From: Actinomadura sp. 6K520
GTDB taxonomy: Bacteria; Actinomycetota; Actinomycetes; Streptosporangiales; Streptosporangiaceae
Direction of reading: 5' to 3'
DNA: 64,000 nt
NCBI RefSeq assembly: GCF_004349245.1
Contig: NZ_SMLC01000021.1
Span: 1-64,000 of the forward strand
A program made the position numbers and the translations under genes. The notes beneath the pieces were generated by a model. That model did no database searches and was not told the DNA's origin. It worked only from the letters and a program-made list of their open reading frames with translations. Position 1 is the stretch's first letter; every line of letters begins with the position of its first letter. This document shows positions 1,290-25,080 of this stretch, in pieces.

Positions 1290-3119
1290 CTAGGTGGTCT
1301 CGGGACGATGGTCGAGGGTGTCGACTTCGGCGGAGGTCGGGCCGCCGGAGAGTTCGGGGTAGCCGGGGCCTCGGTCGAAGAAGGGGGCGGGGCCGCGTTG
1401 GGCGCGTAGGCGTTGGCGTAGGGCCGTGGTCGCTTCCTCGTCCACCGTGCCGTCGGTCAGGATGACGCCGTAGTCGGTGCGCGCGCCTTCGGTCGAGACC
1501 TTGCCGTCGCGGACGTCGGCCGCCACCTGGGACGGGTCTCGGTTCAACGGATCTCCCCAGCCGCCGCCGCCCGTGGTGCGGATGCGGATGACCTGGCCTG
1601 CCTTGACCGGGTGGTCGTCCACGAGCCCTTCCATCTCCTCGCCGTCGATGTCGACGCGGAAGGGGCGGCCCGCGCGGCCGCCGTTGACGCCCCAGCACGA
1701 CAGGATCGAGCGGTCCGCGATCGACATGTAGTGGGCGTCGCGGAGCATCCGGATGTGCTTGTCGTAGCCGAGGCCGCCGCGGTACTCCCCCGGCCCGCCG
1801 GAGTCGACCGCCAGGCCGAGGCGCTCGACGACGAACGGCCAGCGGGCCTCGGCGAACTCGGCGGGGATGTTGCGGGAGTCGGGGACGACGTGGATGGTGT
1901 CCTCGCCGTCGGCGTAGTAGCGGCCGCCGGAGCCGCCGCCGAGGACCTCGCGCATCAGGTACGGGCCGCGGTCGTCCTCCCCGTAGACGCCGGTGTAGCG
2001 GATCGTCTCCTGGTCGGCGGGCATCCGGCCTCCCGTGGCCTTGGCCAGGACGCCCGCGAGGACGCCGAGGAGGCGCAGGATGACGAACGTGCGGGCGTTG
2101 GTCGGGGCCGGGAAGACGGGCGTGAGCAGCGTGCCCTTCTCCGGGAACCGCATCTCGATGAGGGGCACCACGCCCTCGTTCACGTCGAGTTCGGCGGCGC
2201 GTTCGGGGGTGTCGGCCAGGTTCCGCAGGACGGGCGCCAGCCACTTCTTCAGGAACACCCCGTCCGCGTAGTCGCCCGCGTGGTTGATGGGGCCCTTGGC
2301 CTGCGGTGACGTGCCGGCGAAGTCGATGACCAGGGGGACGTCCGCAGATTTGTCGACGGTCAGCGTGATGCGCTGGGCGTGCAGGCGGGGCGGGTCGACG
2401 CCGTCGTGCTCGGCGTAGTCCTCCCAGACGAACGTCCCGTCCGGGATCTTGGCGAGCAGCTCGCGGCGGAACGTCTCGGTGGTCTTGTCGATGACGGCGT
2501 CGAAGCACGCCTCGATGTCCGCGCGGCCGTAGCGGTCGAACAGCTCGCCGAGGCGGCGGGCGCCCATGAGGCACGCCGAGCATTCGGCGTCCAGGTCGCC
2601 CGCGAGGGAGTCGGGCATGCGGGAGTTGCGGGTCATGATGGTCAGCGCGGCCTCGTTCGGGACGCCCTGGTCCCACAGCTTGATCGGGGGGACCATCAGG
2701 CCCTCCTCGAACGCGCTGCGGGCATGGCTCGGCATCGACCCCGGGACGGCGCCGCCGATGTCGTCGTGGTGCCCGAACGCCTGCACGAACGCGACGACCT
2801 CGCCGCCGTGGAACACCGGGACGGTGACGCACAGGTCCGGCAGGTGCCCGATGCCGCCTTCCGACAGGTACACGTCGTTGTGGAAGAACACGTCCCCGGG
2901 ACGCATCTCTTCGAGGGGGAAGTCGCGGGCGACCGGCTGGACGAGGGCGGAGTACGAGCGTCCGGTGAGCTTGCGAAGGCGGCGGTCGTGGATGCCCGCG
3001 CGGAAGTCGTGCGCGTCCCGGATCATCGGGGAGCGGGCCGTGCGCGCGATGGCCGTCTCGACCTCGCGCTCCACCGACGCGAGCGTCCCTTCGACGATCT
3101 CCAGCAGGATCGGGTCCAT
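1290..3119 (-). CDS. hyuB: hydantoinase B / oxoprolinase family protein
   Basis: 609 residues, the usual length for the HyuB (hydantoinase_B) family, starting MDPILLEIVEGTLASVE. Conserved stretches visible are RPGDVFFHNDVYLSEGG, the glycine-rich GGGSGGRYYADGED and TGGGGWGDPLNRD near the C-terminus. With HyuA it forms a cytosolic ATP-dependent cyclic-amide hydrolase acting on N-methylhydantoin, 5-oxoproline or related rings; some relatives are acetone or acetophenone carboxylases, so the substrate cannot be read from sequence. Its ATG overlaps the hyuA stop as ATGA, indicating one operon and a complex. It ends facing the DUF3592-like gene with a gap of about 12 bases. Confidence 0.93.
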   Translation of the reverse strand: MDPILLEIVEGTLASVEREVETAIARTARSPMIRDAHDFRAGIHDRRLRKLTGRSYSALVQPVARDFPLEEMRPGDVFFHNDVYLSEGGIGHLPDLCVTVPVFHGGEVVAFVQAFGHHDDIGGAVPGSMPSHARSAFEEGLMVPPIKLWDQGVPNEAALTIMTRNSRMPDSLAGDLDAECSACLMGARRLGELFDRYGRADIEACFDAVIDKTTETFRRELLAKIPDGTFVWEDYAEHDGVDPPRLHAQRITLTVDKSADVPLVIDFAGTSPQAKGPINHAGDYADGVFLKKWLAPVLRNLADTPERAAELDVNEGVVPLIEMRFPEKGTLLTPVFPAPTNARTFVILRLLGVLAGVLAKATGGRMPADQETIRYTGVYGEDDRGPYLMREVLGGGSGGRYYADGEDTIHVVPDSRNIPAEFAEARWPFVVERLGLAVDSGGPGEYRGGLGYDKHIRMLRDAHYMSIADRSILSCWGVNGGRAGRPFRVDIDGEEMEGLVDDHPVKAGQVIRIRTTGGGGWGDPLNRDPSQVAADVRDGKVSTEGARTDYGVILTDGTVDEEATTALRQRLRAQRGPAPFFDRGPGYPELSGGPTSAEVDTLDHRPETT

Positions 3120-5161
3120 CAGCGCGTCACCACCAGGTTGCCGTAGCCGTCGAGGGTCGCGGTGAAGCCCGGGTGGAGCGGGAGGGTCGAGCCGAACTCC
3201 TCAATGACGGCCGGGCCCTCGACGGTGTCGCCCGGGGCGAGTTTCTCGCGCCGGTAGACGGGCGTCTCCGCCCAGGCGTCGAAGTAGACGGGCCGGGTGC
3301 CGGTGCGGGCGCGGGCGGCGTCGCCGTCCCCGGGCGGACGCTCGGCCAGGCGGGGCCGGGCGATCGGGCCGATCCCGGAGACCCGCAGGTTGACCCACTC
3401 GACGGGGTGCCGCGGGTCGTCGCGGTAGCAGTACCCGTAGAGGGACTCGTGGGCGTCGTGGAAGCGGCGCACGACCTCGGCGCGGAACGCGTCGTCCGGC
3501 GGCCCGGCGGGGGCGGGGACCCGGACCTCGAACGCCTGCCCGTAGTACCGCAGGTCGGCGGAGCGGGCGAAGCGGTGCCGGTCCGGCGGGAACCCCTCGC
3601 GGGACAGCGTGCTCGCGGCGTCCGATTCGAGGCCGGTGTAGATCTCGTCCAGCAGCGCGGGGTCGAGTTCGGCGTCGCGGACGACCCGCGTCCGGACGTA
3701 GTCGTTCTTCACGTCCACCGTGAGCAGCCCGAACGCCGACAGGTTGCCGGGGTTCTCCGGGATCACGGCGGCGGGCAGCCCGAGGACGTCGAGCAGCCGG
3801 CACGCGAGCAGCGGGCCGGAGCCGCCGAACGCGACGAGCGGGTAGTCGCGGACGTCCAGGCCGCGCTTCACGGTGATCTGCCTGATGGCGTTGGCCTGGT
3901 TCCACGCGGAGATCTCCAGGATCCCGGCCGCGGCCCGCTCGACGGGGAGGCCGAGGTCGCCGGCGAGGGTGTCGAGGCCGGTCCGGGCGGCGGCCACGTC
4001 CAGGGGGACCTCGCCGCCGAGCAGGTGCGGCGGGATGCGGCCGAGGACGGCGTGCGCGTCGGTCACCGTGACCTCGGTGCCGCCGCGCCCGTAGCAGAGC
4101 GGGCCGGGGTCGGCGCCCGCGCTGCGCGGGCCGACCTTCAGCGCGCCCTCCGGCGACCGCCACGCGACCGAGCCGCCGCCCGCCCCGACGGTCACGATGT
4201 CGATCATCGGGATCTTGACGGGGTGCCGCCCGATCGTCCCCTCGGTGGTGAGGGTCGGCTCGCCGTCCAGGACGACCGCGACGTCCGTGGACGTCCCGCC
4301 GCCGTCCAGCGTGACCACGGAGCCGTGCCCGCTGCGGGCGACGACGAACGCCGCGCCGAGCGCCCCCGCGGCCGGGCCGGACAGCACCGTCGTGATCGGC
4401 TGCCGGGCGACCTCGTCCGCCGACAGCACTCCCCCGTTGCTCTTCATCACCAGCAGCGGGGTCGCGACCCGCCCGGCGATGCGCGTCAGGTAGCCGTTCA
4501 TCGCGGGTTTGACGGCCGCGTCCACCAGCGTCGTCACCGACCGCTCGTACTCGCGGTACTCGCGCAGCACCTCGCACGACAGCGACACCACCGCGTCCGG
4601 GTGCTCGCGGGCCAGCACGTCCCGCATCGCCAGCTCGTGCGACGGGTCGGCGTAGGAGTGCAGGAGGCACACGCCGATCGCGAGGATGCCCGCGTCCCGG
4701 AACCAGCGGGCCGCCGCGACCGCCGACTCCTCGTCGAACGGGCGCAGCTCCGCGCCGGTGTGGTCGAGCCGCCCGCCGACCGTCCGGACCCGGTGCACCG
4801 GGACGATCCGCGGCGGCTTCACCCAGAAGTAGCTGTTGCCGTAGCCGTCCGGAACGCTCTGCCGCGCGATCTCCAGGATCGAACCGAAGCCCTCGGTGGT
4901 GACGAACCCGAGGTCGTCGAGGCGGTCCTCCAGGAGCCGGTTCGTCGCGACGGTCGTGCCGTGCGTCAGCGCCGCGACGTCGTCCGGTTCGCCGCCGAGC
5001 AGGCCGAGCACCTTGGCGACGCCCGCCGCGAACCCCTCCGCGGGGTCGGCGGGCGTCGAGGGCGTCTTGGTGGTGACGAGCCCTCCCCCGTCCTCGTCCA
5101 GCGCGACGACGTCGGTGAACGTCCCGCCCGTGTCGATCCCGATCCGCAGCCGCCGTGCCAT
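3119..5161 (-). CDS. hyuA: hydantoinase A / oxoprolinase family protein
   Basis: 680 residues. The N-terminal actin-like ATP-binding motif RIGIDTGGTFTDVVALD (residues 6-22), the central SGPAAGALGAAFV and the LDGGGTSTDVAVV motif identify the HyuA family. It uses ATP to activate a cyclic amide or carboxylate substrate in partnership with HyuB. The ATG at 5161 is chosen because the next in-frame upstream codon is only a TTG. It is the first gene of a two-gene leftward operon and is divergent from the FKBP gene. Location beside a molybdenum hydroxylase and oxamate carbamoyltransferase suggests a ring-opening step in N-heterocycle catabolism, which is inference. Confidence 0.93.
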   Translation of the reverse strand: MARRLRIGIDTGGTFTDVVALDEDGGGLVTTKTPSTPADPAEGFAAGVAKVLGLLGGEPDDVAALTHGTTVATNRLLEDRLDDLGFVTTEGFGSILEIARQSVPDGYGNSYFWVKPPRIVPVHRVRTVGGRLDHTGAELRPFDEESAVAAARWFRDAGILAIGVCLLHSYADPSHELAMRDVLAREHPDAVVSLSCEVLREYREYERSVTTLVDAAVKPAMNGYLTRIAGRVATPLLVMKSNGGVLSADEVARQPITTVLSGPAAGALGAAFVVARSGHGSVVTLDGGGTSTDVAVVLDGEPTLTTEGTIGRHPVKIPMIDIVTVGAGGGSVAWRSPEGALKVGPRSAGADPGPLCYGRGGTEVTVTDAHAVLGRIPPHLLGGEVPLDVAAARTGLDTLAGDLGLPVERAAAGILEISAWNQANAIRQITVKRGLDVRDYPLVAFGGSGPLLACRLLDVLGLPAAVIPENPGNLSAFGLLTVDVKNDYVRTRVVRDAELDPALLDEIYTGLESDAASTLSREGFPPDRHRFARSADLRYYGQAFEVRVPAPAGPPDDAFRAEVVRRFHDAHESLYGYCYRDDPRHPVEWVNLRVSGIGPIARPRLAERPPGDGDAARARTGTRPVYFDAWAETPVYRREKLAPGDTVEGPAVIEEFGSTLPLHPGFTATLDGYGNLVVTR

Positions 5162-5305
5162 GCCCAAGGTCTACCGGACGGCCCCCACCTGCGAAACCGT
5201 CGTGATCTGCCAACGGACGCGATGTTCTTTCGTCAGGCCCCGCTCCCGCTAGGCTGGGCGGTTCCATCCGACCGACGCATTCCACGAGACCGCTGGAGCC
5301 CCTAC

Positions 5306-5681: not shown

Positions 5682-6362
5682 TCAGCGGTTGCGGGCCCTT
5701 CCCAGGAGATAGCCGAGCGCCACCCCGGTGAGGGCGGCGGCCGCGCCGGCGCCGAACGCGGCGGCCATCGGCCAGGCCACGGACGGCCGCTCCAGCCGGG
5801 GGTCCGGTGCCGCCGCGGCGCGTCCCGCGTAGACGGTGCCGGTCCCGGCGGGAGTCCCCGGGGCCGGTGCCGCCGCGGCCTCGGGCGGTGCGGCGGGCGG
5901 GGCGGCGGGTCCGGGAGCCGCCGCCGGGGCCGTGAGGTCGCGTTCGACGGCCGCGAAGAACTCGCCGGCGGTGCGCTTGGCGACGCTGCCGAGCATCCGC
6001 TGGCCGACGCCGCCGACCATGCCGCCCACGGTCGCGTCCGCGTCGTAGTCGATCCTGGTCGAGCCGTCGCCGTCGGTCAGCCGCACGCGGACGGTGGCGT
6101 CCACCGTGCCGGGTGCGCCCTGCCCGCGCGCCCGCAGCACGAACGAGCGCGGCGGGTCGGGCTCGGCGAGTTCGACATGGCCCACGTAGGTGCCCTGGAT
6201 CGAGGCGACGCCCGCCGTGACGGTCATGCGGTACGTGTCGGGGCCCGTCTCCTCCAGCGAACTGCATCCGGGGATCGTCCTCGCCAGGACGGCCGGGTCC
6301 TGGAGCGCGTCCCACACGCGGGCGAGCGGCGCGGCGACGGTGACACTGCCGTTGAGCTGCAT
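5682..6362 (-). CDS. coxG: CoxG-like SRPBCC protein with C-terminal membrane anchor
   Basis: 226 residues. Residues 1-145 form an SRPBCC lipid/ligand-binding fold of the CO dehydrogenase subunit G family (MQLNGSVTVAAPLARVWDAL, PGCSSLEETGPDTYRM, DYDADATVGGMVGGVGQRML). An Ala/Pro-rich linker (about 146-195) leads to a membrane helix (about 199-220) ending LLGRARNR. In cox clusters CoxG tethers the molybdenum hydroxylase to the membrane; the anchor fits this. The hydroxylase genes lie 1.2 kb away on the same strand but are separated by the deacetylase gene, so it is probably a separate transcript. Confidence 0.88.
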   Translation of the reverse strand: MQLNGSVTVAAPLARVWDALQDPAVLARTIPGCSSLEETGPDTYRMTVTAGVASIQGTYVGHVELAEPDPPRSFVLRARGQGAPGTVDATVRVRLTDGDGSTRIDYDADATVGGMVGGVGQRMLGSVAKRTAGEFFAAVERDLTAPAAAPGPAAPPAAPPEAAAAPAPGTPAGTGTVYAGRAAAAPDPRLERPSVAWPMAAAFGAGAAAALTGVALGYLLGRARNR

Positions 6363-7569: not shown

Positions 7570-9984
7570 TCACCCCATCGGGACGTTCTCCCCGACGCGC
7601 AGCGACGGGTCGGCGGCGGCGCGCAGCCGGAGCCTGTAGAGGCCGTCCGGGGAGATCGGCATCGCGTCCACGCGGACGCCCTCCGCGTCCTCGATCGCCG
7701 ACGCGATCACCGCCGACACCGGGATGACGCCCGCCTCCCCCGCGCCCTTGATGCCCAGCGGGTTCAGCGGCGACGGCGTCTCCAGATGATCGGTCTCGAT
7801 GCGGGGGATCTCCGTCGCGTACGGCATGAGGAAGTCCATGAACGAGGCGTTCAGCAGCTGGCCCCCCTCGTCGTAGACCATCCGCTCGTACAGCGCGCCG
7901 CCGATGCCCTGCGCGACACCGCCGTGGATCTGCCCCTCGACCACCATCGGGTTGATCAGCCGCCCGCAGTCGTGGACGACCGCGTACCGCAGGACGGCGA
8001 CCTCCGCCGTGTCGGGATCGACCTCCACGATCGCGGCGTGCGCCCCGGCCGCGAACGTGGAGCGGACCGGCGAGTAGTAGTCGCGCCCCTCCAGGCCGGG
8101 CTCGTCACCGGCCGCGACGGGCGGCTCGGTGACCGGGCGGCCGACCGCGAACTGCGTCGCCGCCGCGGCCTCCTCGTCGAACGCGTACCGCAGCGGGTTC
8201 GACAGCACCGCGACCGTCCGCAGCGGCACCGCGGCCGACGGGTCGCCGCGCACGTGGACGACGCCGTCGGTGATGTCGAGGTCCCCGGGGTCGGCCTCCA
8301 GCGCCTCTCCGGCGATGCGCAGCGCCTTGGCGCGCACCTTCCGGGCGGCGAGCGCGATGGCGTTGCCGCTCATCACGGCCGCGCGGGACGCGAACGTCCC
8401 GACCGCGTACCCGAACCGGCGGGTGTCGCCCGTGGTGACCCGCACGTCCTCGATGGGGACGCCGAGCTCCGCGGCCGCGATCTGCGCGAAGACGGTCTCG
8501 TGGCCCTGCCCCTGCGAGGTCAGGCCCGTGGAGACGTGCACCCGCCCGGCCGTGTCGATCTCGACGTGCCCGCCCTCGTACGGGCCGACGCCCGTCCCCT
8601 CGACGTAGATGCCGAGCCCGATGCCGACGCGGCGGCCCCGGGCCCTCGCCTCGGCGCGTGCGGCCGCGAAGCCGTCCCAGCCGATCAGCTCCCGGACCTT
8701 GCGGAGCAGCTCCGGGTAGTCGCCCGAGTCGTAGATCAGCGGGCGGCCGTCCTGGAACGTCAGGCCCTGGTCGTAGGGGAACTCGTCGGGCTGGATGAGG
8801 TTGGCCTCCCGCACCTCGGCGCGGTCGCGGCCGAGGTGGCGGGCGACGCGGTCCATCGTCCGCTCCATGCAGAACACGCCCTGCGGGCGGCCCGCGCCCC
8901 GGTACGGCGTGACGATCAGGGTGTTGGTGTAGAGGCTGACGACCTCCGCCCGGTACGCGCCGATCTTGTACGGGCCGAGCAGCTGGGTGGACGTGATGAT
9001 CGGGATGATGATCCCGTACGGGGTGTAGGCGCCGTGGTCGTGCCGGATCCGCACGTCCAGGCCGAGGATGCGGCCCTCGCCGTCGAACCCGACCCGCACG
9101 TCCTGGAGCTGGCCGCGTTCGTGGGCGGCGGCGACGAAGTGCTCGCGGCGGTCCTCGGTCCACTTGATCTCGCGGTCCAGCAGCCGCGCCGCCCACGGGA
9201 CCAGGATCTCCTCCGGCCACGGGTGGACGATCTTGACGCCGAACCCGCCGCCGACGTCCGGCGCGACCACCTCGACCTTGCCGTTCGGGAGCCCGAGCCG
9301 CGCGGCGATCGCGGCGCGCACGCTGGTGGACGCCTGCGTCGACGAGTACACGCGCAGCGAACCGTCGGCGGCGTCCCACCGCGCGTACACCCCGCGCCCT
9401 TCGAGGGGCATCGACGCGCTGCGCTCGATCGCCAGGCTGAACTCCAGCACGTGGGGGGCGGCCTCGATCGCGGCGGCCGCGTCCCCGTTCTCCTGGACGA
9501 GGACCGCCCCGACGTTGCCGGGCACGTCGTCGTGGACGAGCCGTTCCGCCCGGGAGGCCGCCTCGATGCCGACGACGGCGGGGAGCGGCTCGTACTCCAC
9601 GCGGATGCGCTCGGCGGCGTCCTCGGCCAGGTAGCGGTCACGGGCGACGACCATCGCGACGGGCTCGCCGACGTGCCGGACGACGTCGCGGGCCAGCGGG
9701 TACCCGGTGCGGCCGTGCGTCAGGGCCGGGTGCGGGATCAGCAGCGGCAGCGGCTCCCCGACCCGGCCCGGCAGGTCCTCCCAGGTGTAGATGGCGACGA
9801 GGCCGTCGACGTCCAGCGCCTCCGACACGTCGATGTCGGCGATCCGGGCGTGCGCGTGCGGGGACCGGACGAACGCCGCCGCGAGGGCGCCGGGGCCGAG
9901 GTCGTCCAGGTAGCGGCCCCGGCCGGTGGTGAGCCTGCCGTCCTCGCGGCGCTCGACCGGCTCCCCGAAGAATCGCGTCGCCAC
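7570..9984 (-). CDS. molybdenum hydroxylase large subunit (xanthine dehydrogenase / CoxL family)
   Basis: 804 residues, full length for the molybdopterin-cytosine-dinucleotide large subunit. Visible motifs are VGGGFGVK (244-251) and PYRGAGRP (360-367), and the catalytic glutamate in KGAGEAG (E750). True CO dehydrogenase (form I) has AYRCSFR; the cysteine is absent here, so this is not a CO oxidiser but a form II-like hydroxylase. It would hydroxylate an N-heterocycle or aldehyde, and purine context favours a xanthine-like substrate. GTG start directly follows the small-subunit stop (TGAGTG). It is the third gene of the M-S-L set, probably co-transcribed with the NCS2 permease. Confidence 0.93.
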   Translation of the reverse strand: MATRFFGEPVERREDGRLTTGRGRYLDDLGPGALAAAFVRSPHAHARIADIDVSEALDVDGLVAIYTWEDLPGRVGEPLPLLIPHPALTHGRTGYPLARDVVRHVGEPVAMVVARDRYLAEDAAERIRVEYEPLPAVVGIEAASRAERLVHDDVPGNVGAVLVQENGDAAAAIEAAPHVLEFSLAIERSASMPLEGRGVYARWDAADGSLRVYSSTQASTSVRAAIAARLGLPNGKVEVVAPDVGGGFGVKIVHPWPEEILVPWAARLLDREIKWTEDRREHFVAAAHERGQLQDVRVGFDGEGRILGLDVRIRHDHGAYTPYGIIIPIITSTQLLGPYKIGAYRAEVVSLYTNTLIVTPYRGAGRPQGVFCMERTMDRVARHLGRDRAEVREANLIQPDEFPYDQGLTFQDGRPLIYDSGDYPELLRKVRELIGWDGFAAARAEARARGRRVGIGLGIYVEGTGVGPYEGGHVEIDTAGRVHVSTGLTSQGQGHETVFAQIAAAELGVPIEDVRVTTGDTRRFGYAVGTFASRAAVMSGNAIALAARKVRAKALRIAGEALEADPGDLDITDGVVHVRGDPSAAVPLRTVAVLSNPLRYAFDEEAAAATQFAVGRPVTEPPVAAGDEPGLEGRDYYSPVRSTFAAGAHAAIVEVDPDTAEVAVLRYAVVHDCGRLINPMVVEGQIHGGVAQGIGGALYERMVYDEGGQLLNASFMDFLMPYATEIPRIETDHLETPSPLNPLGIKGAGEAGVIPVSAVIASAIEDAEGVRVDAMPISPDGLYRLRLRAAADPSLRVGENVPMG

Positions 9985-11336: not shown

Positions 11337-11347
11337 CGGCCGCCTCC

Positions 11348-12953: not shown

Positions 12954-13029
12954 CTGGTGGGCGGGCATCGGCGACATCTGCCAAAGCCCGCGCCCCCGAT
13001 TGGGAGGAGCGGCCGGTGCGAGCCGCCGC

Positions 13030-14873: not shown

Positions 14874-14923
14874 GCCAGGGGTCACCTCGCCTTTTGGTGC
14901 GTACATCGCCCGTTACGGCGTGA

Positions 14924-14953: not shown

Positions 14954-14972
14954 CAAAGACGAACGATGACAA
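14948..14972. promoter_or_regulatory. TGACAA direct repeats in the pucR-allH divergent region
   Basis: TGACAA occurs at 14948-14953 and 14967-14972, starts 19 bases apart and so on nearly the same DNA face, in an AT-richer pocket of the divergent intergenic region. The first copy doubles as the reverse complement of the pucR -35 box. This fits a binding site for an autoregulated PucR. Confidence 0.4.
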
Positions 14973-15085
14973 CCATCCTTGGCAGCTTTCCCCATACGTC
15001 CGCCGCGGGGGCCGTTCTACGGTCTCCGCAGAGGCCGGTCCGCCCGCGTGCCGGACGGCCACCGTCACCGGCCTCGGGAGGATCC

Positions 15086-16127: not shown

Positions 16128-17579
16128 GTGAGGGACTGGGTCGAGGTGCGGCGGGGGGCCTACCACGATTCGGTGACGCTGATGCGGGTGAGCCGTTCCC
16201 TGACGGAGCGGCCGGAGGTCGCCGCGGCGATGGTGGCGATGGGCACCGAACTCAACCGCGAGATGGTCGCGGGCATGGGCTTCGAGGTGCCCGCGGGCGC
16301 GGGCCCGGACGACCTGGTCGTGGCGATCCGGGTCGCGGACGCGGGACGCGGCGAAAAGCTCGACGCGGCGCGGGAGGCGCTGGACGGGCTGCTGCGCGCC
16401 GCGTCCCGCCCGCCGGCCGGAACCGGGGTGCTGGGCGCCGCGGTCCCGGCGCGGACGACCGGGTCCGCGGCGGCGCGGGCCGACGCGACCGTGGCGCTGC
16501 TGTCGGTGCCGGGCCCGCACGTGTTCCCGGAGGCGATGGACGCCCTCGACGCCGGCCTCAACGTGATGATCTTCAGTGACAACGTGCCGCTCGACCAGGA
16601 GATCGCGCTGAAGGAGGCGGCGGCGCGCCGCGGCCTGATCGTGATGGGCCCCGACTGCGGCACCGCCGTGATCGGCGGCGCCGGCCTGGGGTTCGCGAAC
16701 GCGGTGCGCCCGGGGCCGGTCGGCATCGTCGCGGCGTCCGGGACGGGCGCGCAGCAGCTGATGTGCCTGCTGGACGCGGCCGGCGTGGGTGTCACCCATG
16801 TGCTGGGCGTCGGCGGGCGCGACCTGTCGCCGGAGGTGAGCGGCCGGTCCGCGCTGGCGGCGCTGGCGGCGCTGGACGCCGACCCGGGCACCGAGCTGAT
16901 CGTGCTGGTCTCCAAGCCGCCCGCGCCGCAGGTGGCGGACCTGATCCGGGAGGCGGCGCGGCGGCTCGACACCCCGGTCGTCTTCGCGCTGCCGATGGCC
17001 GGCGAGGACGACATCACGCAGGCGGCGGAGAAGGCGGTGCGGGCGCTCGGCCGGGCGGTCCCGCGGTGGCCGCGGTGGGCGGCCCGGCGGCGGCCGGTGC
17101 CGGCGGGCGGCCGGGCGCTGCGCGGGCTGTTCGCCGGCGGGACGCTGCGCGACGAGGCGGAGATGATCGCGCGGGGCGTGCTGGGCTGGGACCTGGAGAC
17201 GCGCGGTCACCGGTTCACCGACTTCGGCGACGACGCCTACACGCGCGGCCGCGCCCACCCGATGATCGACCCGACGCTGCGGCTGGAGGCGGTGCGGGCG
17301 GAGGCGGCCGACCCGGAGACCGGGGTCCTCCTGCTGGACGTGGTGCTGGGATATGGGGCCGAGCCGGACCCGGCGGCGTCGCTGGCCCCGGCCATCGCCG
17401 AGGCGGTGAAGGACCGCCCCGACCTGGCCGTTGCCGTCTCACTGTGCGGAACGCCCGCGGACCCGCAGGACCGCGACCGGCAGGCGGCGGCCCTGTCCGA
17501 GGCGGGCGCGGACGTGTTCGCCTCCAACGCCCAGGCGACCCGGCACGCCCTCGCGACGGTGGAAGGGACGCCCGGATGA
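16128..17579 (+). CDS. allF: oxamate carbamoyltransferase subunit AllF-like (FdrA family)
   Basis: 483 residues of the FdrA family, which resembles succinyl-CoA synthetase alpha folds. Visible landmarks are VEVRRGAYHDSVTLMRVSRS at the start, ALDAGLNVMIFSDNVPLDQE, IVMGPDCGTAVIGGAGLGFA and GIVAASGTGAQQ. E. coli AllF (FdrA) is part of the oxamate transcarbamylase complex. The GTG start is used because an ATG 32 bases upstream is in another frame and stops after 11 codons. The gap to allH is 28 bases, and the stop overlaps the allG ATG as ATGA. Slightly shorter than the roughly 550-residue E. coli protein. Confidence 0.88.
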   Translation: MRDWVEVRRGAYHDSVTLMRVSRSLTERPEVAAAMVAMGTELNREMVAGMGFEVPAGAGPDDLVVAIRVADAGRGEKLDAAREALDGLLRAASRPPAGTGVLGAAVPARTTGSAAARADATVALLSVPGPHVFPEAMDALDAGLNVMIFSDNVPLDQEIALKEAAARRGLIVMGPDCGTAVIGGAGLGFANAVRPGPVGIVAASGTGAQQLMCLLDAAGVGVTHVLGVGGRDLSPEVSGRSALAALAALDADPGTELIVLVSKPPAPQVADLIREAARRLDTPVVFALPMAGEDDITQAAEKAVRALGRAVPRWPRWAARRRPVPAGGRALRGLFAGGTLRDEAEMIARGVLGWDLETRGHRFTDFGDDAYTRGRAHPMIDPTLRLEAVRAEAADPETGVLLLDVVLGYGAEPDPAASLAPAIAEAVKDRPDLAVAVSLCGTPADPQDRDRQAAALSEAGADVFASNAQATRHALATVEGTPG

Positions 17580-18988
17580 ACAACCAGCGGCACCGGCTGG
17601 GCGGTCTGCTCACGCGGGAACCCGGCGTCGTCGCCGCCGGGGTGGAGGTCCTCGCCGGGGCGCTCGCCGAGCAGGCCGTTCCGGTGGAGACGGTCGACTG
17701 GAGGCCGCCGCCCGCCGGGACGGAGCAGGCCCTCGCGGCGGTGCTCGGCGACCCCGGCCACGCGGACGCCAACGCCCGCGCCGTGCGGCGCATGGTGACG
17801 GCCCGTCCCCACCTCGTGGACGTCCGCCCGGCACGGGAGGTCCTCGGCCTGGACGCCGGGACGTTCCTGCACGCGGGGCCGCCGCTGGCGTGGGAGCAGG
17901 CGTCCGGGCCGATGCGCGGCGCGCTGATGGGCGCGATGCTGCTGGAGGGCCTGGCCGCCACGCCGGAGGACGCGGAACGCGAGCTGGCACGCGGTGCGGC
18001 GACACTCGAACCGTGCCACCACCACGCCACGGTCGGGCCGATGGCCGGGGTCGTCAGCCCGTCCATGTGGATGTGGGTCGTGGAGGACGCCGAGCACGGC
18101 GGCAGGTCCTACTGCTCGCTCAACGAAGGGCTCGGGAAGGTCCTGCGGTACGGGGCGTACGGGCCGGAGGTCATCGAGCGGCTGACGTGGATGGGCGAAT
18201 TCCTCGGCCCCGCGCTCCGGGCGACCGTGCGCCGCCACGGCCCCCTCGACCTGATGGCGCTCATCGCGCAGGCGGTCCAGATGGGCGACGAGCTGCACAA
18301 CCGGAACCGGGCGGCGACGTCGCTGCTGCTCCGCGAGCTGGCGCCCGACCTCGCCGCCGCCGAGGATGTGCCGCGCGAGCTGGCCGCCGAGGCGCTGCGG
18401 TTCGCGGCGGGCAACGAGCACTTCTTCCTGAACCCGGGCATGGCGGCGGCGAAGGCGTGCGCGGACGCGGCCCGCGGCGTCCCCGGCTCCAGCCTGGTCG
18501 TGGCGATGGCCCGCAACGGCACCGAGTTCGGCATCCAGGTGTCCGGCACGGGCGACCGCTGGTTCACCGGCCCGGCCGGGGTGCCCGACGGCCTCTACCT
18601 CGGCGGCTACGGCCCGGCCGACGCCAACCCCGACATCGGCGACTCGGCGATCACCGAGACGGCCGGGATGGGCGGGTTCGCGCTCGCCGCCGCGCCCGCC
18701 ATCGTCCGGTTCGTCGGCGGTGAGGTGCCGGACGCGGTGGCCGCCACCCAGCGGATGTACGAGATCACGCTGACCGAGCACCCGGCGCTGCAGATCCCCC
18801 TGCTGTCGTTCCGCGGCACCCCGGCCGGGATCGACGTGACCCGCGTCGTCCGCACCGGGATCCTGCCGGTCATCGACACCGGGATCGCGGGCCGCGAGGC
18901 GGGTACGGGCCAGGTCGGCGCCGGGCTCGTCGAACCCCCGCCGGGCGTGTTCACCGACGCCCTGCACGCCCTCGCCGAGATCGCGTAG
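17576..18988 (+). CDS. allG: oxamate carbamoyltransferase subunit AllG-like (DUF1116)
   Basis: 470 residues, DUF1116 (YlbE/AllG) family. Recognisable stretches are GALMGAMLLEGLA, ATLEPCHHHATVGPMAGVVS with a histidine cluster, AVQMGDELHNRNRAATSL, GNEHFFLNPGMAAAKA and VVAMARNGTEFGIQVSG. Third subunit of the oxamate transcarbamylase set. ATG 17576 overlaps the allF stop (ATGA). With all three subunits in one operon beside pucR, oxamate, oxalurate or carbamoyl-phosphate chemistry is well supported, although no carbamate kinase or ureidoglycolate dehydrogenase gene is in view. Confidence 0.9.
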   Translation: MNNQRHRLGGLLTREPGVVAAGVEVLAGALAEQAVPVETVDWRPPPAGTEQALAAVLGDPGHADANARAVRRMVTARPHLVDVRPAREVLGLDAGTFLHAGPPLAWEQASGPMRGALMGAMLLEGLAATPEDAERELARGAATLEPCHHHATVGPMAGVVSPSMWMWVVEDAEHGGRSYCSLNEGLGKVLRYGAYGPEVIERLTWMGEFLGPALRATVRRHGPLDLMALIAQAVQMGDELHNRNRAATSLLLRELAPDLAAAEDVPRELAAEALRFAAGNEHFFLNPGMAAAKACADAARGVPGSSLVVAMARNGTEFGIQVSGTGDRWFTGPAGVPDGLYLGGYGPADANPDIGDSAITETAGMGGFALAAAPAIVRFVGGEVPDAVAATQRMYEITLTEHPALQIPLLSFRGTPAGIDVTRVVRTGILPVIDTGIAGREAGTGQVGAGLVEPPPGVFTDALHALAEIA

Positions 18989-20066: not shown

Positions 20067-21284
20067 GTGGTGAATCTCAGCGTCTCCTCGTTCGACGACC
20101 TGTCCGCGCGCATCGCCGCCGTCCGTGACGAGCACCGCGAGCGCCACCCCGGCGGCGCCGACGGGCGGCAGCCGGTGCACACGGTGTACGTGCCGGCCGA
20201 CCGGTTCTCCCGCTCGACCCCGGCCGACTTCGGCGCGGAGGCGCTGCGGCTGCTGAACACGCACACGCCGGGCGCCGGGTCGTTCGGTTCGGCGTTCGCG
20301 CTCGACCCCGAGATCGCCGGGCTCGTCCGGGAGCGGGTCGCGGCGAAGCTGTCCGCCGAGCCGGTCGAGGACGTGCGGATCGACTTCGAGGACGGCTACG
20401 GCGTGCGGCCCGACGCCGAGGAGGACGCGCACGTCGCGCAGGTCGTCGAGGCCGTCGCCGCCGCGTACCAGGTCAAGGGCCTCCCCCACTACTGGGGCGT
20501 GCGGGTCAAGTCGTTCGCCGACGGCGGGCACGAGCGCGCGATGCGCACACTCGACGCGTTCCTCACCGCGCTGCGCGACCGGCTCGGGCGGCTGCCCGGC
20601 GGGTTCACCATCACGTTCCCGAAGGTCGTCGCGGCCGAGCACGTCGCGCTGTTCACCGAGTACCTGGAGCGGCTGGAGACCGCGCTCGGCCTGCCGTCCG
20701 GCATCCTGCGGTTCGAGGTGCAGGTCGAGACGCCCGAGTCGATCCTGGACGGCGAGGGCCGGACCGCGCTGCGCGCCATCGCGGCCGCCGCCGGGGGCCG
20801 CCTCACCGCCGCCCACTTCGGGGTGTTCGACTACACCGCCGCGCTCGGGCTGCCGCCGCACGAGCAGCGCCTCGACCATCCCGCCTGCGACTTCGCCCGG
20901 CACGTCATGCAGGTGTCGTTCGCCGGAACCGGCGTGCGGCTGTCGGACGGCTCCACCAACGTCATCCCCCGCAACGACGGGCCCGACGAGGTCAACGCGA
21001 CGTGGGCGGCGCACGCCGCGCACGTCCGGCACTCACTGCGGCACGGCTTCTACCAGGGCTGGGACCTGCACCCCGCGCACCTGCCGAGCCGGTACGCCGC
21101 CGTGTACGCGTTCCACCTGAGCGGCGTCGACGACGTCATCGGGCGGGTCCGGGCGTGGCACGAGCAGGCCGCCGGCAACGCGGGGGTCCTGGACGAGCCA
21201 GCCACCATCAAGGCGCTCACCGACCGCCTCCGCCGCGCCGTCGACTGCGGCGCCCTCGACGAGAGCGTCCTGCCCGCCTCCTAG
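20067..21284 (+). CDS. DUF6986 / HpcH-HpaI aldolase-like protein
   Basis: About 405 residues resembling the CitE/HpcH aldolase and malate synthase barrel: RIDFEDGYGVRPDAEED carries an acidic metal/acid-base site, and FEVQVETPESILD matches the phosphoenolpyruvate-binding-like strand. Bacterial relatives are annotated DUF6986 or loosely as phosphoenolpyruvate kinase or aldolase. A role in using glyoxylate or another C2 product of purine breakdown is plausible from context only. The start is one of two adjacent GTG codons (20067 or 20070). Its end overlaps the convergent cytidylyltransferase gene by four bases. Confidence 0.8.
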   Translation: MVNLSVSSFDDLSARIAAVRDEHRERHPGGADGRQPVHTVYVPADRFSRSTPADFGAEALRLLNTHTPGAGSFGSAFALDPEIAGLVRERVAAKLSAEPVEDVRIDFEDGYGVRPDAEEDAHVAQVVEAVAAAYQVKGLPHYWGVRVKSFADGGHERAMRTLDAFLTALRDRLGRLPGGFTITFPKVVAAEHVALFTEYLERLETALGLPSGILRFEVQVETPESILDGEGRTALRAIAAAAGGRLTAAHFGVFDYTAALGLPPHEQRLDHPACDFARHVMQVSFAGTGVRLSDGSTNVIPRNDGPDEVNATWAAHAAHVRHSLRHGFYQGWDLHPAHLPSRYAAVYAFHLSGVDDVIGRVRAWHEQAAGNAGVLDEPATIKALTDRLRRAVDCGALDESVLPAS

Positions 21285-21916
21285 CCTTCCCCCGAGCCTG
21301 CCCCGGGCGGCTCTCCGGCGCGGCGGTCCAGTGCGGCCCGTTCGACGGTGCGCAGGTCGTCGGGGGTGTCGATGTCGTCGGGGGCCGCGACGTCGTCGCA
21401 GGGGACGCGCGTGATCCGGTCGGGGTGGGCGCGCAGGTAGGCGCGGGCGCCCTTGTCGCCGACGGCGGCCTCGGCCACGGCGGGGAAGTGCCCGGCGCTC
21501 AGCAGGACGGGGTTGCGCGGCGCTCCCCCGTAGGTCGCGACGGCGAGCTCGGCCCCGTCCTCGTACGCGGCGATCAGCCGCTCCACCGCCGCCGCGGTGA
21601 CGAGTGGCTGGTCGACCAGCGCGACGACCACCGCGGGGCAGGCGGGCGGCAGCGCGGCCAGCCCGGCGCGCAGCGACGACCCCATCCCGTCCCGCCAGCC
21701 GGCGTTGGGCACGACGACGGCGCCGATGACCTCGACCGGCTCGGCCCCGGCGACCACCAGGACCGGGGAGCAGCCCGCGTCCCGCAGCATCCGCACGCCC
21801 CGGTCGACCAGGCGCTCACCCGCCAGCTCCAGCGTCGCCTTCGGACGCCCGAGCCGGCTTCCCTCCCCCGCCGCGAGCAGCAGTCCCGCCGGAGGCTCCG
21901 CACCGTGCAACGTCAT
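21281..21916 (-). CDS. MobA/MocA-like molybdenum cofactor nucleotidyltransferase
   Basis: 211 residues. The nucleotide-binding signature LLLAAGEGSRLGRPKATLEL (12-31) and the metal-site region ALVDQPLVT identify the MobA-like NTP transferase family. MocA-type members attach CMP to molybdopterin, making the MCD form that CoxL-type hydroxylases need. It is the last gene of a leftward operon with xdhC, coxE and coxD, all maturation factors for the hydroxylase at 7570-11336, although the two operons are separated by the all genes. Confidence 0.88.
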   Translation of the reverse strand: MTLHGAEPPAGLLLAAGEGSRLGRPKATLELAGERLVDRGVRMLRDAGCSPVLVVAGAEPVEVIGAVVVPNAGWRDGMGSSLRAGLAALPPACPAVVVALVDQPLVTAAAVERLIAAYEDGAELAVATYGGAPRNPVLLSAGHFPAVAEAAVGDKGARAYLRAHPDRITRVPCDDVAAPDDIDTPDDLRTVERAALDRRAGEPPGAGSGEG

Positions 21917-21934: not shown

Positions 21935-23059
21935 TCACGGCGCGTCGGCGTGGATCCGGCCCGTGGTGTCGGAGAGCGGGCGCCCGGAGCCGCCCCAGCG
22001 GAGCTGGACGAGCTCGGCCGCGATCGACACCGCCGTCTCCTCCGGCGTGCGGGCGCCGAGGTCGAGGCCGATCGGGGAGCGCAGCCGGCCCAGCTCGGCC
22101 TCGGTCATGCCCGCCTCGCGGAGCCGCGCGAGACGGTCCTCGTGGGTGCGGCGCGAACCCATGGCGCCGACATAGCCCGCGCCGGTGCGGAGCGCGACCT
22201 CCAGCAGCGGGACGTCGAACTTGGGGTCGTGGGTCAGGACGCAGATCGCCGTCCGCTCGTCGACGGCGCCGCGTGCCTCCTCCAGGAACTTGTGCGGCCA
22301 CTTCACCACGACCTCGTCGGCCTCGGGGAACCGCTTGGGCGTCGCGAACACCGGCCGCGCGTCGCACACCGTCACGTGGTAGCCGAGGAACTTTCCGATG
22401 CGGGCGACGGCGGCGGCGAAGTCGATCGCGCCGAACACCAGCAGCAGCGGCGGCGGGGCGAACGAGTGCACGAAGACCGTCAGGTCGTCCAGGCGCCGCT
22501 CCCCCTCCGCGCCGTAGTGGCGCTGGCCGGTGAGCCCCTGGGCGAGCATGCCGCGGGCGTCGTCGTCCACCGCCGCGTCGAGGCGCCCGGCGTGCGGGGC
22601 GCCCGGTGCGAGCGACCCGGAGGCGCGGTCGGCCCAGATGACGCGGCGCGCGCCGAGGCGCCCCGGACCGGCGACGACGGTGGCGACGGCCACGGGCTCG
22701 TGCCGCTCGATCGCGGCAGCGACCTCCGCGAACTCCGGAAATGTCGCGGGGCCGACCGGCTCCACCAGGACGTCCAGGATCCCGCCGCAGGTCAGGCCGA
22801 CGGAGAACGCGTCGTCGTCGCTGACCCCGTACCGCTGGACGACGGGCTCGCCGCTCGCCATCACCGACTGCGCAAGGTCGTAGACGGCGCCCTCCACGCA
22901 GCCGCCGGACACGCTGCCCGCGACCTCCCCGCCGGGCGACACCGCCATCGCCGCGCCCGGCGGGCGCGGCGCGCTGCGGAAGGTGTTCACGACGGTCGCG
23001 AGCCCGAACGTCTCCCCGGACGCGTACCAGCCGGCGATGTCGCCGAGGACGTCACGCAT
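21935..23059 (-). CDS. xdhC: XdhC/CoxF family molybdenum hydroxylase maturation protein
   Basis: 374 residues. The N-terminal XdhC domain has SVSGGCVEGAVYDLAQSV, and the C-terminal Rossmann-like domain has GAMGSRRTHEDRLARLRE and SPIGLDLGARTPEETAVSI. XdhC proteins bind molybdopterin cofactor, assist its sulfuration and insert it into the hydroxylase. The start at 23059 (MRDVLGDIAGWY) is chosen over an upstream in-frame codon because of the GGGGAGGG site just before it and because it overlaps the coxE end by only eight bases. Confidence 0.93.
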   Translation of the reverse strand: MRDVLGDIAGWYASGETFGLATVVNTFRSAPRPPGAAMAVSPGGEVAGSVSGGCVEGAVYDLAQSVMASGEPVVQRYGVSDDDAFSVGLTCGGILDVLVEPVGPATFPEFAEVAAAIERHEPVAVATVVAGPGRLGARRVIWADRASGSLAPGAPHAGRLDAAVDDDARGMLAQGLTGQRHYGAEGERRLDDLTVFVHSFAPPPLLLVFGAIDFAAAVARIGKFLGYHVTVCDARPVFATPKRFPEADEVVVKWPHKFLEEARGAVDERTAICVLTHDPKFDVPLLEVALRTGAGYVGAMGSRRTHEDRLARLREAGMTEAELGRLRSPIGLDLGARTPEETAVSIAAELVQLRWGGSGRPLSDTTGRIHADAP

Positions 23060-24191
23060 GTGCCCTCCCCTTCCCGAGGTTCCCTGAGCCACGTCCGGCA
23101 CCGGCCACCAGGCGGGCCAGCTCTTCCAGCGCCGCGAGGCTGTGCCCGGACGTGAAGTCGTCGACGTGCGGCAGCGCCGCGGCCATCCCCGCGGTCAGCG
23201 GCTCGTACCCGGGACGCGCCTTGTGCGGGTTCGCCCACACCACCCGGTGCGCGAGCCGGTGCAGCCGCGCCATCTGCTCGCCGAGCAGCGCCGCGTCGCC
23301 GCGCTCCCAGCCGTCCGAGGCGATCACGACGATCGCGCCGCGGGCGAGGCCGCGCTGCCCGAACCGGTCGAGGAACTCCTTCAGCTCCGCGCCGAGCCGG
23401 GTGCCGCCGCTCCAGTCGGGGATGGCCGCGGACGCCGCCGCCATCGCGGCGTCCGGGTCGCGGTGCCGCAGCTCGCGGGTGAGGCGGGTCAGCCGCGTCC
23501 CGGCGCTGAACACCTCCACGTCGCGCCCGGAGCGGGCGGCGGCGTGCGCGAACCGCAGCAGCGCGTCGGCGTACGGGCTCATCGATCCGCTGACGTCCAC
23601 GATCAGCACGACGCGGCGGGGGCGGGTGCGGTGCGTGCGGTGCCGCAGCAGCGCGGTCTCGCCGCCGCGCCGCAGGGTCTCCCGGATGGTCCGCGCCGGG
23701 TCGAGCCGCCCGGTGGAGGCGGCCGTGAACCGCCGGGACCGGCGCCGTTCGGCGCCCGCGTGCAGCATCGCGATCAGCCGGGCGACCTCGGCGCGCTCGG
23801 CGGCGCTGAGCCGCGCCACGTCCCGGTCGCGCAGCACCTCGACGGCGCTGGCGGTGGCGGCCTTCAGGTTCCCGGACTCCTCCGCGCCGTCCCCGGCGCC
23901 CGGGTCGGGCACCGTCACCCGGCGGACGACCACGGGCGGTGGCGGGCGGCGCCCCGGGCGGGCGGTCGCGCCGGAGAAGTACGCGGCGAAGCACCGGTCG
24001 TAGCGGGCGAGGTCGTCGGGGTCGGCGCAGAGCGTCAGGCGGCCCGCCCAGTACACGTCGGCCGGGTCGAGGACGTCGAGGTGGTCGAGGGCGGCGAGCA
24101 TCGCCTGCACCCGCTCGGGATCGGCGCTCCCGCCCGCCGCGCGCACCGTCCTGGCGAAGCCGACCATCGTCTCGGTGACGTCCCGCTCCAC
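23052..24191 (-). CDS. coxE: CoxE-like von Willebrand factor A domain protein
   Basis: 379 residues. The C-terminal half is a VWA domain with an intact metal-ion-dependent adhesion site: DVSGSMS at 199-205, a threonine in SGGTRLG and the SDGWERGD loop. The N-terminal half is variable and Arg-rich. CoxE works with the MoxR ATPase CoxD to mature the active site of Cox-type hydroxylases. GTG start. It overlaps xdhC downstream and follows coxD by four bases, so the order is D-E-XdhC-MobA. Confidence 0.92.
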   Translation of the reverse strand: MERDVTETMVGFARTVRAAGGSADPERVQAMLAALDHLDVLDPADVYWAGRLTLCADPDDLARYDRCFAAYFSGATARPGRRPPPPVVVRRVTVPDPGAGDGAEESGNLKAATASAVEVLRDRDVARLSAAERAEVARLIAMLHAGAERRRSRRFTAASTGRLDPARTIRETLRRGGETALLRHRTHRTRPRRVVLIVDVSGSMSPYADALLRFAHAAARSGRDVEVFSAGTRLTRLTRELRHRDPDAAMAAASAAIPDWSGGTRLGAELKEFLDRFGQRGLARGAIVVIASDGWERGDAALLGEQMARLHRLAHRVVWANPHKARPGYEPLTAGMAAALPHVDDFTSGHSLAALEELARLVAGAGRGSGNLGKGRAHA

Positions 24192-24195
24192 GCGC

Positions 24196-25080
24196 TCACC
24201 CCCCGTTGAGCAGGGCCTCTAGGCCGCCGCTGAGGACGCGCTGCTGGTCCTCGCGGTACTTGAGGACGGCGCCGAGCGTCACCGCCGCGGTCCCCGGGTC
24301 CAGGTCGCGGACGCCGAGGGCGACGAGGGCCTCGGTCCAGTCGATGGTCTCGGCGACCCCGGGCGGCTTCAGCAGGTCGGTCTCCCGCATCCGCTGCGCG
24401 GCGCGGGCGACCTGCCCGGCGAGCCGCTCCGCCGCGCCGGGCAGCCGCCGCCGGATGATCGCCACCTCGCGGTCGAACGACGGGTGCTCCAGCCAGTGGT
24501 ACAGGCAGCGCCGCTTCAGCGCGTCGTGGACCTCGCGGGTGCGGTTGGAGGTGACCACGACGACCGGCGGGCGCTCGGCCCGGATCGTGCCCAGCTCGGG
24601 AACGGTGATCGTGAAGTCGCTGAGGACTTCGAGGAGGAACGCCTCGAACTCGTCGTCGGCGCGGTCGAGCTCGTCCACCAGCAGGACGCTCGGCGAGGTC
24701 TCCAGGGCCTGGAGCAGCGGCCGGGCCAGCAGGAACCGCCGGTCGTACAGCTCGCCCTCCAGCCGCGCGACGTCGCTGACGCCCGCCGCCTCGGCCGCGC
24801 GCAGGTGCAGGAGCTGGCGCGGGAAGTCCCAGTCGTACAGGGCCTGGGACGCGTCGAGGCCCTCGTAGCACTGCAGCCGGATCAGTGGTGCGCCGAGGCC
24901 CCGCGCAAGCGTTTTGGCCAGCTCGGTCTTACCGACCCCGGCCTCGCCCTCCAGGAACAGCGGGCGGCCCATGCGCAGTGCGAGGAAGCACGCCGTCGCG
25001 AGCCCCTCGTCGCACAGGTAGGCGTGCCTGTCGAGCAGGCCCGCGAGATCCGCGGGCGATCCGACCTGGTCCAGTGTCAT
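24196..25080 (-). CDS. coxD: CoxD-like MoxR-family AAA+ ATPase
   Basis: 294 residues. Walker A is GEAGVGKT (45-52), Walker B is VLLVDELDRADDE, and sensor 1 is VVTSNRTREV. MoxR ATPases pair with VWA proteins as metal-chaperone or activase systems; CoxD is needed for sulfuration of the Cu/Mo centre in CO dehydrogenase and for maturation of related hydroxylases. The ATG at 25080 has a GGGGGAGA site nine bases upstream and gives the usual N-terminus; longer readings add a low-complexity extension. It is the first gene of the maturation operon. Confidence 0.94.
   Translation of the reverse strand: MTLDQVGSPADLAGLLDRHAYLCDEGLATACFLALRMGRPLFLEGEAGVGKTELAKTLARGLGAPLIRLQCYEGLDASQALYDWDFPRQLLHLRAAEAAGVSDVARLEGELYDRRFLLARPLLQALETSPSVLLVDELDRADDEFEAFLLEVLSDFTITVPELGTIRAERPPVVVVTSNRTREVHDALKRRCLYHWLEHPSFDREVAIIRRRLPGAAERLAGQVARAAQRMRETDLLKPPGVAETIDWTEALVALGVRDLDPGTAAVTLGAVLKYREDQQRVLSGGLEALLNGG

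Follow-up and report, generated by a model that had tools for sequence, protein, structure and literature searches.

An Actinomadura gene island that probably encodes part of an oxidative pyrimidine pathway

Introduction

What does a bacterium degrade with a hydantoinase-type HyuAB, a molybdenum (Mo) hydroxylase, an NCS2 permease, a PucR-family regulator and AllFGH encoded in one island? This question is raised by the window, by which we mean the whole 64,000-nucleotide stretch of Actinomadura sp. 6K520 analysed here (contig NZ_SMLC01000021.1, our C133, positions 1-64000, from a genome of 8.19 Mb in 445 contigs). A sequence-only reading had proposed a distinct route for a purine, a hydantoin or another N-heterocycle, in which HyuAB and AllFGH replace the classical purine enzymes. 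Our analysis indicates that the compound is most likely a pyrimidine, not a purine, because of the type of the permease and the accompanying barbiturase and carbamate kinase. The island is probably the import, oxidation and carbamoyl-transfer half of oxidative pyrimidine (uracil/thymine) catabolism, which would be finished through AllHFG and the carbamate kinase.

Results

A conserved core locus

Gene calling with a simple codon-usage script, followed by Pfam/NCBIfam scans, recovered every gene that the sequence-only reading had named, each where it had been placed. The family scans covered the 20 open reading frames (ORFs) on the island side; the window from 27.5 to 64 kb was covered by ORF calling and a palindrome scan. 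The core of the island consists of the following genes.

7570..9984, minus strand: CoxL, Mo-hydroxylase large subunit, NF040766 "group 5"; candidate uracil/thymine dehydrogenase large subunit
9985..10476, minus strand: CoxS, 2Fe-2S subunit (family scan)
about 10473..11348, minus strand: CoxM, FAD subunit (start codon unsettled; named by its place and its conservation with CoxL and CoxS)
11348..12901, minus strand: NCS2 permease of UraA/RutG type, probable pyrimidine importer (scan, residue and tree)
13071..14906, minus strand: PucR-family regulator (family scan)
14966..16099, plus strand: AllH (PF11392, DUF2877), longest ORF (78 bits, cut-off 25)
16128..17579, plus strand: AllF/FdrA (NF004760, 415 bits, slightly below the cut-off of 433)
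17576..18988, plus strand: AllG (PF06545, DUF1116; family scan)

This core, NCS2-CoxMSL-PucR-AllHFG, is widely conserved in Actinomycetes. Of 120 same-family genomes, 74 carry AllG; the window's copy shares 97% identity with the one from Actinomadura livida. From 40 AllG-positive genomes (38 genera) we retrieved the surroundings of the gene, at most 20 kb each, and detected the neighbours of AllG by tblastn: CoxL, CoxS and CoxM were each present in 37 of the 40 loci, NCS2 in 36, PucR in 39 and AllH in 38. Wherever CoxL, PucR and AllG are all present (37 loci), the first two lie on the same strand and AllG is divergent. Since the core is kept in 36-39 of 40 loci from 38 genera although the flanking genes vary, the clustering is non-random. 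Eighty named relatives were also fetched, and among the 64 with about 10 kb upstream of AllG, CoxL is found in 60, NCS2 in 61 and PucR, AllH and AllF in 64.

For a broader view we used a class sample of 296 Actinomycetes genomes (115 genera), drawn irrespective of AllG, CoxL, HyuA or barbiturase, with orthologue cut-offs of at least 64% identity and E ≤ 1e-170 for HyuA and E ≤ 1e-250 for CoxL. AllG occurs in 72 genomes (38 genera), the barbiturase family in 67 (36), HyuA in 61 (32) and CoxL in 62 (31). All four are found together in 56 genomes and none of them in 217; Fisher tests of such co-occurrence treat related genomes as independent. Ten class genomes have AllG only, and the eight of their neighbourhoods that were inspected show no CoxLMS or NCS2 beside AllG. 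Repeats of one genome were merged with a hand-made table, and nine same-family or class regions were picked for other AllG lineages or for exceptions, so that tallies of loci beyond the samples defined above should not be taken as rates.

Fusions of AllF with AllG occur in four same-family loci (L038, L046, L052 and L068) and in L176, which suggests that the two subunits touch. L191 (1285-7246) holds another AllG lineage (39% identity) beside a luciferase-family mono-oxygenase, CoxMSL (CoxL 40%) and likely transporter genes, a second arrangement in which AllG and a Mo-hydroxylase are paired. In L175 and L196, PucR-AllHFG has genes with carbamoyl-phosphate synthetase small-chain and aspartate/ornithine carbamoyltransferase domains close by, and CoxL is non-adjacent there.

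The permease is probably of the pyrimidine type

The NCS2 permease scores 193-197 bits against UraA and 52-58 bits against UapA. All 53 core proteins compared, that of the window included, have Glu at the position of UraA Glu290, as do UraA and RutG, whereas XanQ, XanP and UacT carry Gln there; we take this residue to separate pyrimidine from purine carriers. In a tree of 29 rows, the 20 core rows (19 of them different) form a clade with RutG with support of 100/97, and long branches were flagged elsewhere in the tree. By residue and tree the permease is of UraA/RutG type, and it is probably a pyrimidine importer.

A Mo-hydroxylase labelled as carbon monoxide dehydrogenase

CoxL is annotated as "aerobic carbon-monoxide dehydrogenase" by NCBIfam NF040766, with 1499 bits against a cut-off of 950, but it falls short of the TIGR02416 model (482 bits, cut-off 991). 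Its loop reads VTPYRGAGRP, which, like a GxKGAGEAG motif, is found in 53 of 53 proteins, and the CSFR active-site motif of carbon monoxide (CO) dehydrogenase is absent from that loop. The nearest solved proteins are quinoline 2-oxidoreductase (494 bits) and 6-hydroxypseudooxynicotine dehydrogenase (473), with xanthine dehydrogenase (XDH) at 178; the XDH models stay below their cut-offs (XdhA 410 of 780, PucD 290 of 783.65). The CO dehydrogenase label that NF040766 puts on this CoxL group is thus probably a widespread misannotation. Uracil/thymine dehydrogenase (EC 1.17.99.4) was described biochemically decades ago, and co-occurrence makes CoxLMS a candidate for it.

A Bar-type barbiturase and a carbamate kinase accompany the core

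Because both permease and CoxL showed signs of pyrimidine use, we searched for a barbiturase. We compared 80 chosen genomes, among them 20 that are AllG-negative and 56 core genomes, that is, genomes with a fetched locus (in two, G175 and G281, CoxL lies away from AllHFG). A gene of the AtzD/Bar family is present in 56 of 56 core genomes and in 1 of the 20 AllG-negative ones. In the class sample it is found in 61 of 62 CoxL genomes, and AllG occurs in 61 of 63 genomes with the barbiturase family once four genomes without the full signature described below are set aside.

Published work gives the barbiturase signature as Asn195, His321, Lys325, Val345 and Ser/Ala346 in AtzD numbering (PMC3758960; here and below, articles are cited for the portions of their text that were accessible). 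The Actinomadura protein has all five residues (N194, H324, K328, V348 and A349); it thus reads NHKVA and lacks the cyanuric acid hydrolase signature R195, T321, R325, G345, G346. Its best solved match is 5hwe, "Barbiturase", with 589 bits, and cyanuric acid hydrolases reach 322. Of 64 family loci inspected, which come from 52 genomes and include repeats, 60 carry the full signature. The copies of the four barbiturase-family-only genomes without it read RTRGG, NHKGG (in two genomes) or NVMGG, and among the other 63 class genomes, 40 were read and all 40 are of Bar type. One of the 67 barbiturase-family genomes, G141, has only a 25-residue fragment.

The Actinomadura barbiturase lies on contig C43, in the order acyl-CoA synthetase (333 bits with the malonyl-CoA synthase model, cut-off 558), aminotransferase, carbamate kinase (about 16117-17103) and barbiturase (about 17149-18264). 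Of the 50 genomes with 500 bp or more of sequence ahead of the barbiturase, 44 have a carbamate kinase directly upstream of it on the same strand; this set comes mostly from AllG-carrying genomes and excludes G126 and G133, whose contigs end within 134 bp. AllG-barbiturase distances were taken for 51 of the 61 genomes carrying both genes. The two share a contig in 36: no more than 50 kb separates 29 pairs and no more than 100 kb separates 30, five are 117-133 kb apart and one, in the single contig of G175, 1.7 Mb. They are on different contigs in 15.

As a named example, in Embleya sp. NBC_00888 about 29 kb hold CoxDE, XdhC, AllHFG, PucR, NCS2, CoxMSL and CoxG together with a nitrilase, barbiturase, carbamate kinase, an AccAD-like carboxyltransferase and a CoA-transferase; the 35 kb examined there contain no match to HyuAB. 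In Nonomuraea gerenzanensis, barbiturase and AllG lie within about 44 kb with HyuAB in between. Among 20 regions around barbiturase or HyuA, 12 hold a family III CoA-transferase and six an AccAD-like carboxyltransferase, neighbours that are consistent with malonate use. Beside CoxG there is a nitrilase-family gene in seven loci (L065, L163, L165, L168, L170, L171 and L172) and an amidase-signature (AS) amidase gene in four (L166, L167, L173 and L174); in the loci that also show HyuA (L165, L166, L167 and L172), the gene lies between HyuA and CoxG. These enzymes are candidates for malonamate hydrolysis, or for a ureidomalonase.

A shared promoter palindrome

The promoters of AllH and NCS2 share a palindrome, gTtgGcaa.AT.ttgCcaAc, which was learned on them. 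Single sites reach p<0.05 in 37 of 50 AllH and 33 of 50 NCS2 promoters; these values are in-sample, and the window's own promoters were in the training set. A further 541 promoters served as controls. Out of sample, the palindrome ranks above controls in promoters of carbamate kinase (1e-5 in a rank test) and HyuA (5e-4), with no significant rise before CoA-transferase (0.07). A site with a score of 13.4 lies before the Actinomadura carbamate kinase (about C43:16063). Three of 63,981 window positions score at least 12, and two of them are the following sites.

12967..12986, no strand: PucR-site-like palindrome upstream of NCS2, score 14.8 (window promoters in the training set)
14978..14997, no strand: PucR-site-like palindrome, probably upstream of the true AllH start, score 16.4

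Because the longest AllH ORF, at 377 residues, exceeds the median of its relatives (276-277) by about 100, its true start is probably downstream of the second site. The top-scoring palindrome of the window (17.1, at 57960-57979) lies far from the island, inside the ORF 57857-58477 on the minus strand, and possibly marks a further regulated gene or is a chance match. PucR may be the protein that binds the palindrome.

HyuAB and the remaining island genes

The other genes of the island are the following.

1290..3119, minus strand: HyuB (PF02538), ATP-dependent hydantoinase/oxoprolinase-type beta subunit (462 bits)
3119..5167, minus strand: HyuA (PF01968/PF05378/PF19278), best solved relative N-methylhydantoinase 7hk5
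5682..6362, minus strand: CoxG (PF06240; family scan)
6428-7453, plus strand: polysaccharide deacetylase
19018-19983, plus strand: aldose epimerase
20049-21284, plus strand: DUF6986 protein
21281..21916, minus strand: MocA-like Mo-cofactor nucleotidyltransferase (PF12804; MocA model 106 bits, cut-off 186)
21935..23101, minus strand: XdhC-family Mo-enzyme maturation factor (family scan)
23052..24191, minus strand: CoxE (VWA; family scan)
24196..25278, minus strand: CoxD-like AAA ATPase (MadB model 255 bits, cut-off 475)

The deacetylase, epimerase and DUF6986 protein had gone unmentioned in the sequence-only reading. The latter two follow AllG (window 19018-21284) in Actinomadura and some close genera; we rejected them as pathway enzymes because they are beside the core only in relatives of the window, in 5 and 6 of 41 loci, respectively, window included.

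HyuAB tracks the core across genomes, with a HyuA orthologue of at least 66% identity in 55 of 56 core genomes (not G004) and in 0 of 20 AllG-negative ones. It is no inseparable member of the local cluster, since HyuA was seen in 1 and HyuB in 0 of the 40 same-family 20-kb neighbourhoods (in G085 both lie slightly outside); HyuA is, for example, 19 kb from AllG in G097 and 44 kb in G057. Scores stay below the equivalog cut-offs for caprolactamase (CapA 483 of 1000, CapB 210 of 1000) and acetophenone carboxylase (ApcC 275 of 1500). HyuAB may be a second ring opener, for example for 5-methylbarbiturate, or may hydrolyse an amide in an ATP-dependent manner.

The classical purine genes are elsewhere in the genome

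The sequence-only reading had noted that the usual purine genes are absent. This holds for the island, whose 20 ORFs include no uricase, carbamate kinase, allantoinase, allantoate amidohydrolase or ureidoglycolate dehydrogenase (the last two had no genome-wide search), but not for the genome. Contig C424 holds OHCU decarboxylase, HIU hydrolase, uricase, a PucD-type XDH (795.7, curated cut-off 783.65), allantoinase and allantoicase together, all above curated cut-offs, and the carbamate kinase is on C43. A full purine cluster elsewhere is one half of what that reading had said would speak against it, and the proposal that HyuAB and AllFGH replace the classical purine/allantoin enzymes was dismissed since these remain intact on C424. 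What stands is the idea of a distinct N-heterocycle route: AllFGH, Mo-hydroxylase, permease, PucR and, by whole-genome counts, HyuAB form one catabolic unit.

Uricase is missing from 10 of 74 AllG-positive family genomes. The core was seen in seven of these (G004, in which NCS2 is not in view, G010, G015, G042, G057, G070 and G107), none of which has an allantoinase above the cut-off. The core is therefore independent of urate and allantoin.

Discussion

Taken together, linkage, co-occurrence and residue signatures make a pathway for uracil and thymine probable. The NCS2 permease would import them, and CoxLMS, matured by CoxG, CoxD, CoxE, XdhC and MocA, would hydroxylate C6 with water, yielding barbiturate from uracil and 5-methylbarbiturate from thymine. 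The barbiturase encoded on C43 would open the ring to ureidomalonate. E. coli AllFGH acts on oxalurate (PMC11326118), of which ureidomalonate is the homologue with one more carbon, and we infer that AllHFG would use phosphate to cleave ureidomalonate to malonamate and carbamoyl phosphate, from which carbamate kinase would form ATP, CO2 and NH3. An amidase would convert malonamate to malonate, and CoA-transferase, acyl-CoA synthetase and the AccAD-like enzyme could lead on to malonyl-CoA, with PucR controlling both operon sets.

Several observations weigh against this pathway or parts of it. The characterised substrate of AllFGH is oxalurate (PMC11326118). In our own genome the barbiturase and carbamate kinase are on C43, separate from the island contig, so that physical linkage is unseen there. 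The barbiturase also scores above the cut-off of the NCBIfam model for cyanuric acid hydrolase (476 against 360), which is why the residue test was needed, and the carbamate kinase passes NF009007 (282, cut-off 266) and is slightly under the cut-off of TIGR00746 (343, cut-off 358). The kinase is not directly upstream of the barbiturase in 6 of 50 genomes (G045, G325, G003, G306, G067 and G101); in G325 an amino-acid kinase sits in the core locus, and G045 has no AllG. Evidence from single promoters is modest, with p<0.05 for 5 of 19 carbamate kinase, 2 of 14 HyuA and 2 of 12 CoA-transferase promoters. HyuAB has no clear job, yet AllG is found in 59 of 61 HyuA genomes. Two genomes, G023 and G045, carry a further, only distantly related Mo-hydroxylase set (CoxL 27-28%) close to HyuAB or barbiturase (L215, 85-3655, and L258, 4121-7697). 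Finally, G045 lacks AllG, HyuA and an adjacent carbamate kinase although it has CoxL, NCS2 and barbiturase. G366 has PucR-NCS2-CoxMSL-CoxG-HyuAB without barbiturase or AllG, so that this Mo-hydroxylase may work with a different or a further partner. Both G045 and G366 have urease and would fit a urea-releasing variant (n=2).

Such a variant is the main competitor: pyrimidines would be oxidised as above, a separate ureidomalonase would yield malonate and urea, and AllHFG and HyuAB would salvage another ureide or a thymine-derived product. This is how the published route ends (PMC3758960), and the gene content of G045, the lack of an assigned step for HyuAB and a urease match in 34 of 56 core genomes, our own included, fit it. 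It leaves unaccounted for the near-constant presence of AllG in barbiturase-family genomes and of a carbamate kinase, most simply fed by a transcarbamylase, beside the barbiturase, and a urease match at E ≤ 1e-100 is lacking from 22 of the 56 core genomes; we judge it unlikely. We also considered avoidance of urea as the reason for having AllHFG and did not retain it, the same urease counts being only suggestive.

The other two alternatives fare worse. In a purine or hydantoin route a ring derived from either would be oxidised (for example, hydantoin to parabanate), HyuAB would open it to oxalurate, and AllFGH would split oxalurate into oxamate and carbamoyl phosphate. The oxamate transcarbamylase activity of E. 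coli AllFGH (PMC11326118) and the kinship of HyuA to N-methylhydantoinase favour this idea, which is nevertheless quite improbable given the classical purine cluster kept elsewhere, the seven core genomes without uricase or an above-cut-off allantoinase, a permease of pyrimidine type, a CoxL far from XDH and a tight co-occurrence with Bar-type barbiturase that it leaves unexplained. That CoxLMS is an aerobic CO dehydrogenase with unrelated neighbours has the NF040766 score in its favour. We dismissed it as scarcely credible in view of the missing CSFR motif, the VTPYRGAGRP loop in its place, the low TIGR02416 score and the constant linkage to a pyrimidine-type permease and AllHFG.

Oxidative pyrimidine catabolism finished by AllHFG can be compared with known systems. 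E. coli has AllF, AllG and AllH homologues together with a homologous carbamate kinase (allFGH-allK; identities of 41% for AllF, 49% for AllG, 28% over 179 residues for AllH and 43% for the kinase), and there AllFGH, anticipated by an earlier genomic-context prediction (PMC3364942), is an oxamate transcarbamylase that splits oxalurate into oxamate and carbamoyl phosphate (PMC11326118). Unlike in E. coli, the island has no allantoin genes, is linked to a pyrimidine-type permease, a Mo-hydroxylase and a barbiturase, and has a PucR-type regulator, and the kinase sits in the barbiturase operon. The oxidative pathway of Rhodococcus, a pathway dated to the 1950s (PMC3758960), shares with it a barbiturase with the five Bar residues (group VI, a list that includes Streptosporangium roseum; PMC3758960), an actinomycete host and an expected Mo-hydroxylase-type first step. 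It differs in that AllHFG and carbamate kinase (and HyuAB) accompany the barbiturase here, whereas the published route has a ureidomalonase that makes urea, and in that the dehydrogenase gains a gene candidate. The E. coli Rut pathway (rutABCDEFG) includes the pyrimidine:H+ symporter RutG, to which, among six E. coli NCS2 permeases, the island permease is closest; RutA represents a flavin mono-oxygenase route, and no Rut enzyme is found among the scanned island genes.

AllFGH and carbamate kinase accompany an AtzD/Bar ring opener in a second, independent setting. Plasmid pSR8 of Aminobacter (Chelatobacter) SR38, an atrazine degrader whose pSR8 contig carries atzB, atzC and trzD (PMC8407692), has fdrA, DUF1116, a ring-opening amidohydrolase, carbamate kinase, an amidohydrolase, a BMP protein with an ABC transporter, and DUF2877. 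The Klebsiella plasmid pKqs_SB610_3 has the same order, with an insertion element after the kinase and allophanate hydrolase upstream. In common with the system described here, a ring opener of the AtzD/Bar family goes with AllF-AllG and the kinase, which on these plasmids lie next to it, but it has the cyanuric signature RTRGG and not NHKV(A/S), and no CoxL or NCS2 match was found in the fetched stretches. A Citrobacter plasmid match (L274) has a ring opener beside an NCS2 symporter, without AllG. In nitrifiers, allFGH and carbamate kinase beside biuret hydrolase, without upstream purine genes, have been interpreted as serving oxalurate use (PMC12625717); L071, L160, L177 and L178, in which AllF-AllG are accompanied by a hydrolase of the isochorismatase family and by an amino-acid (carbamate) kinase, resemble this biuH-allFGHK arrangement (PMC12625717).

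The sequence-only reading had seen here a candidate for an undescribed pathway. In the accessible portions of the open-licence literature we found no account of this variant, no link between AllFGH and barbiturate and no gene assigned to uracil dehydrogenase. On balance, we favour a generalisation in which an ATP-conserving, phosphorolytic variant of pyrimidine catabolism is widespread in Actinomycetes, CoxLMS is uracil/thymine dehydrogenase, and AllFGH is a general family of ureide phosphorylases that, together with carbamate kinase, acts after AtzD/Bar ring openers in at least two pathways, those of barbiturate and of plasmid-borne s-triazine (cyanuric acid) degradation, oxalurate being just one of its substrates. 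If so, uracil/thymine dehydrogenase, so far a gene orphan, would acquire genes, and the "CO dehydrogenase" label would be corrected for a CoxL group with an orthologue in 62 of 296 Actinomycetes genomes. The last step of the oxidative pyrimidine pathway could then give carbamoyl phosphate and ATP instead of urea, and AllFGH would widen from an oxalurate enzyme to a ureide-cleaving family.

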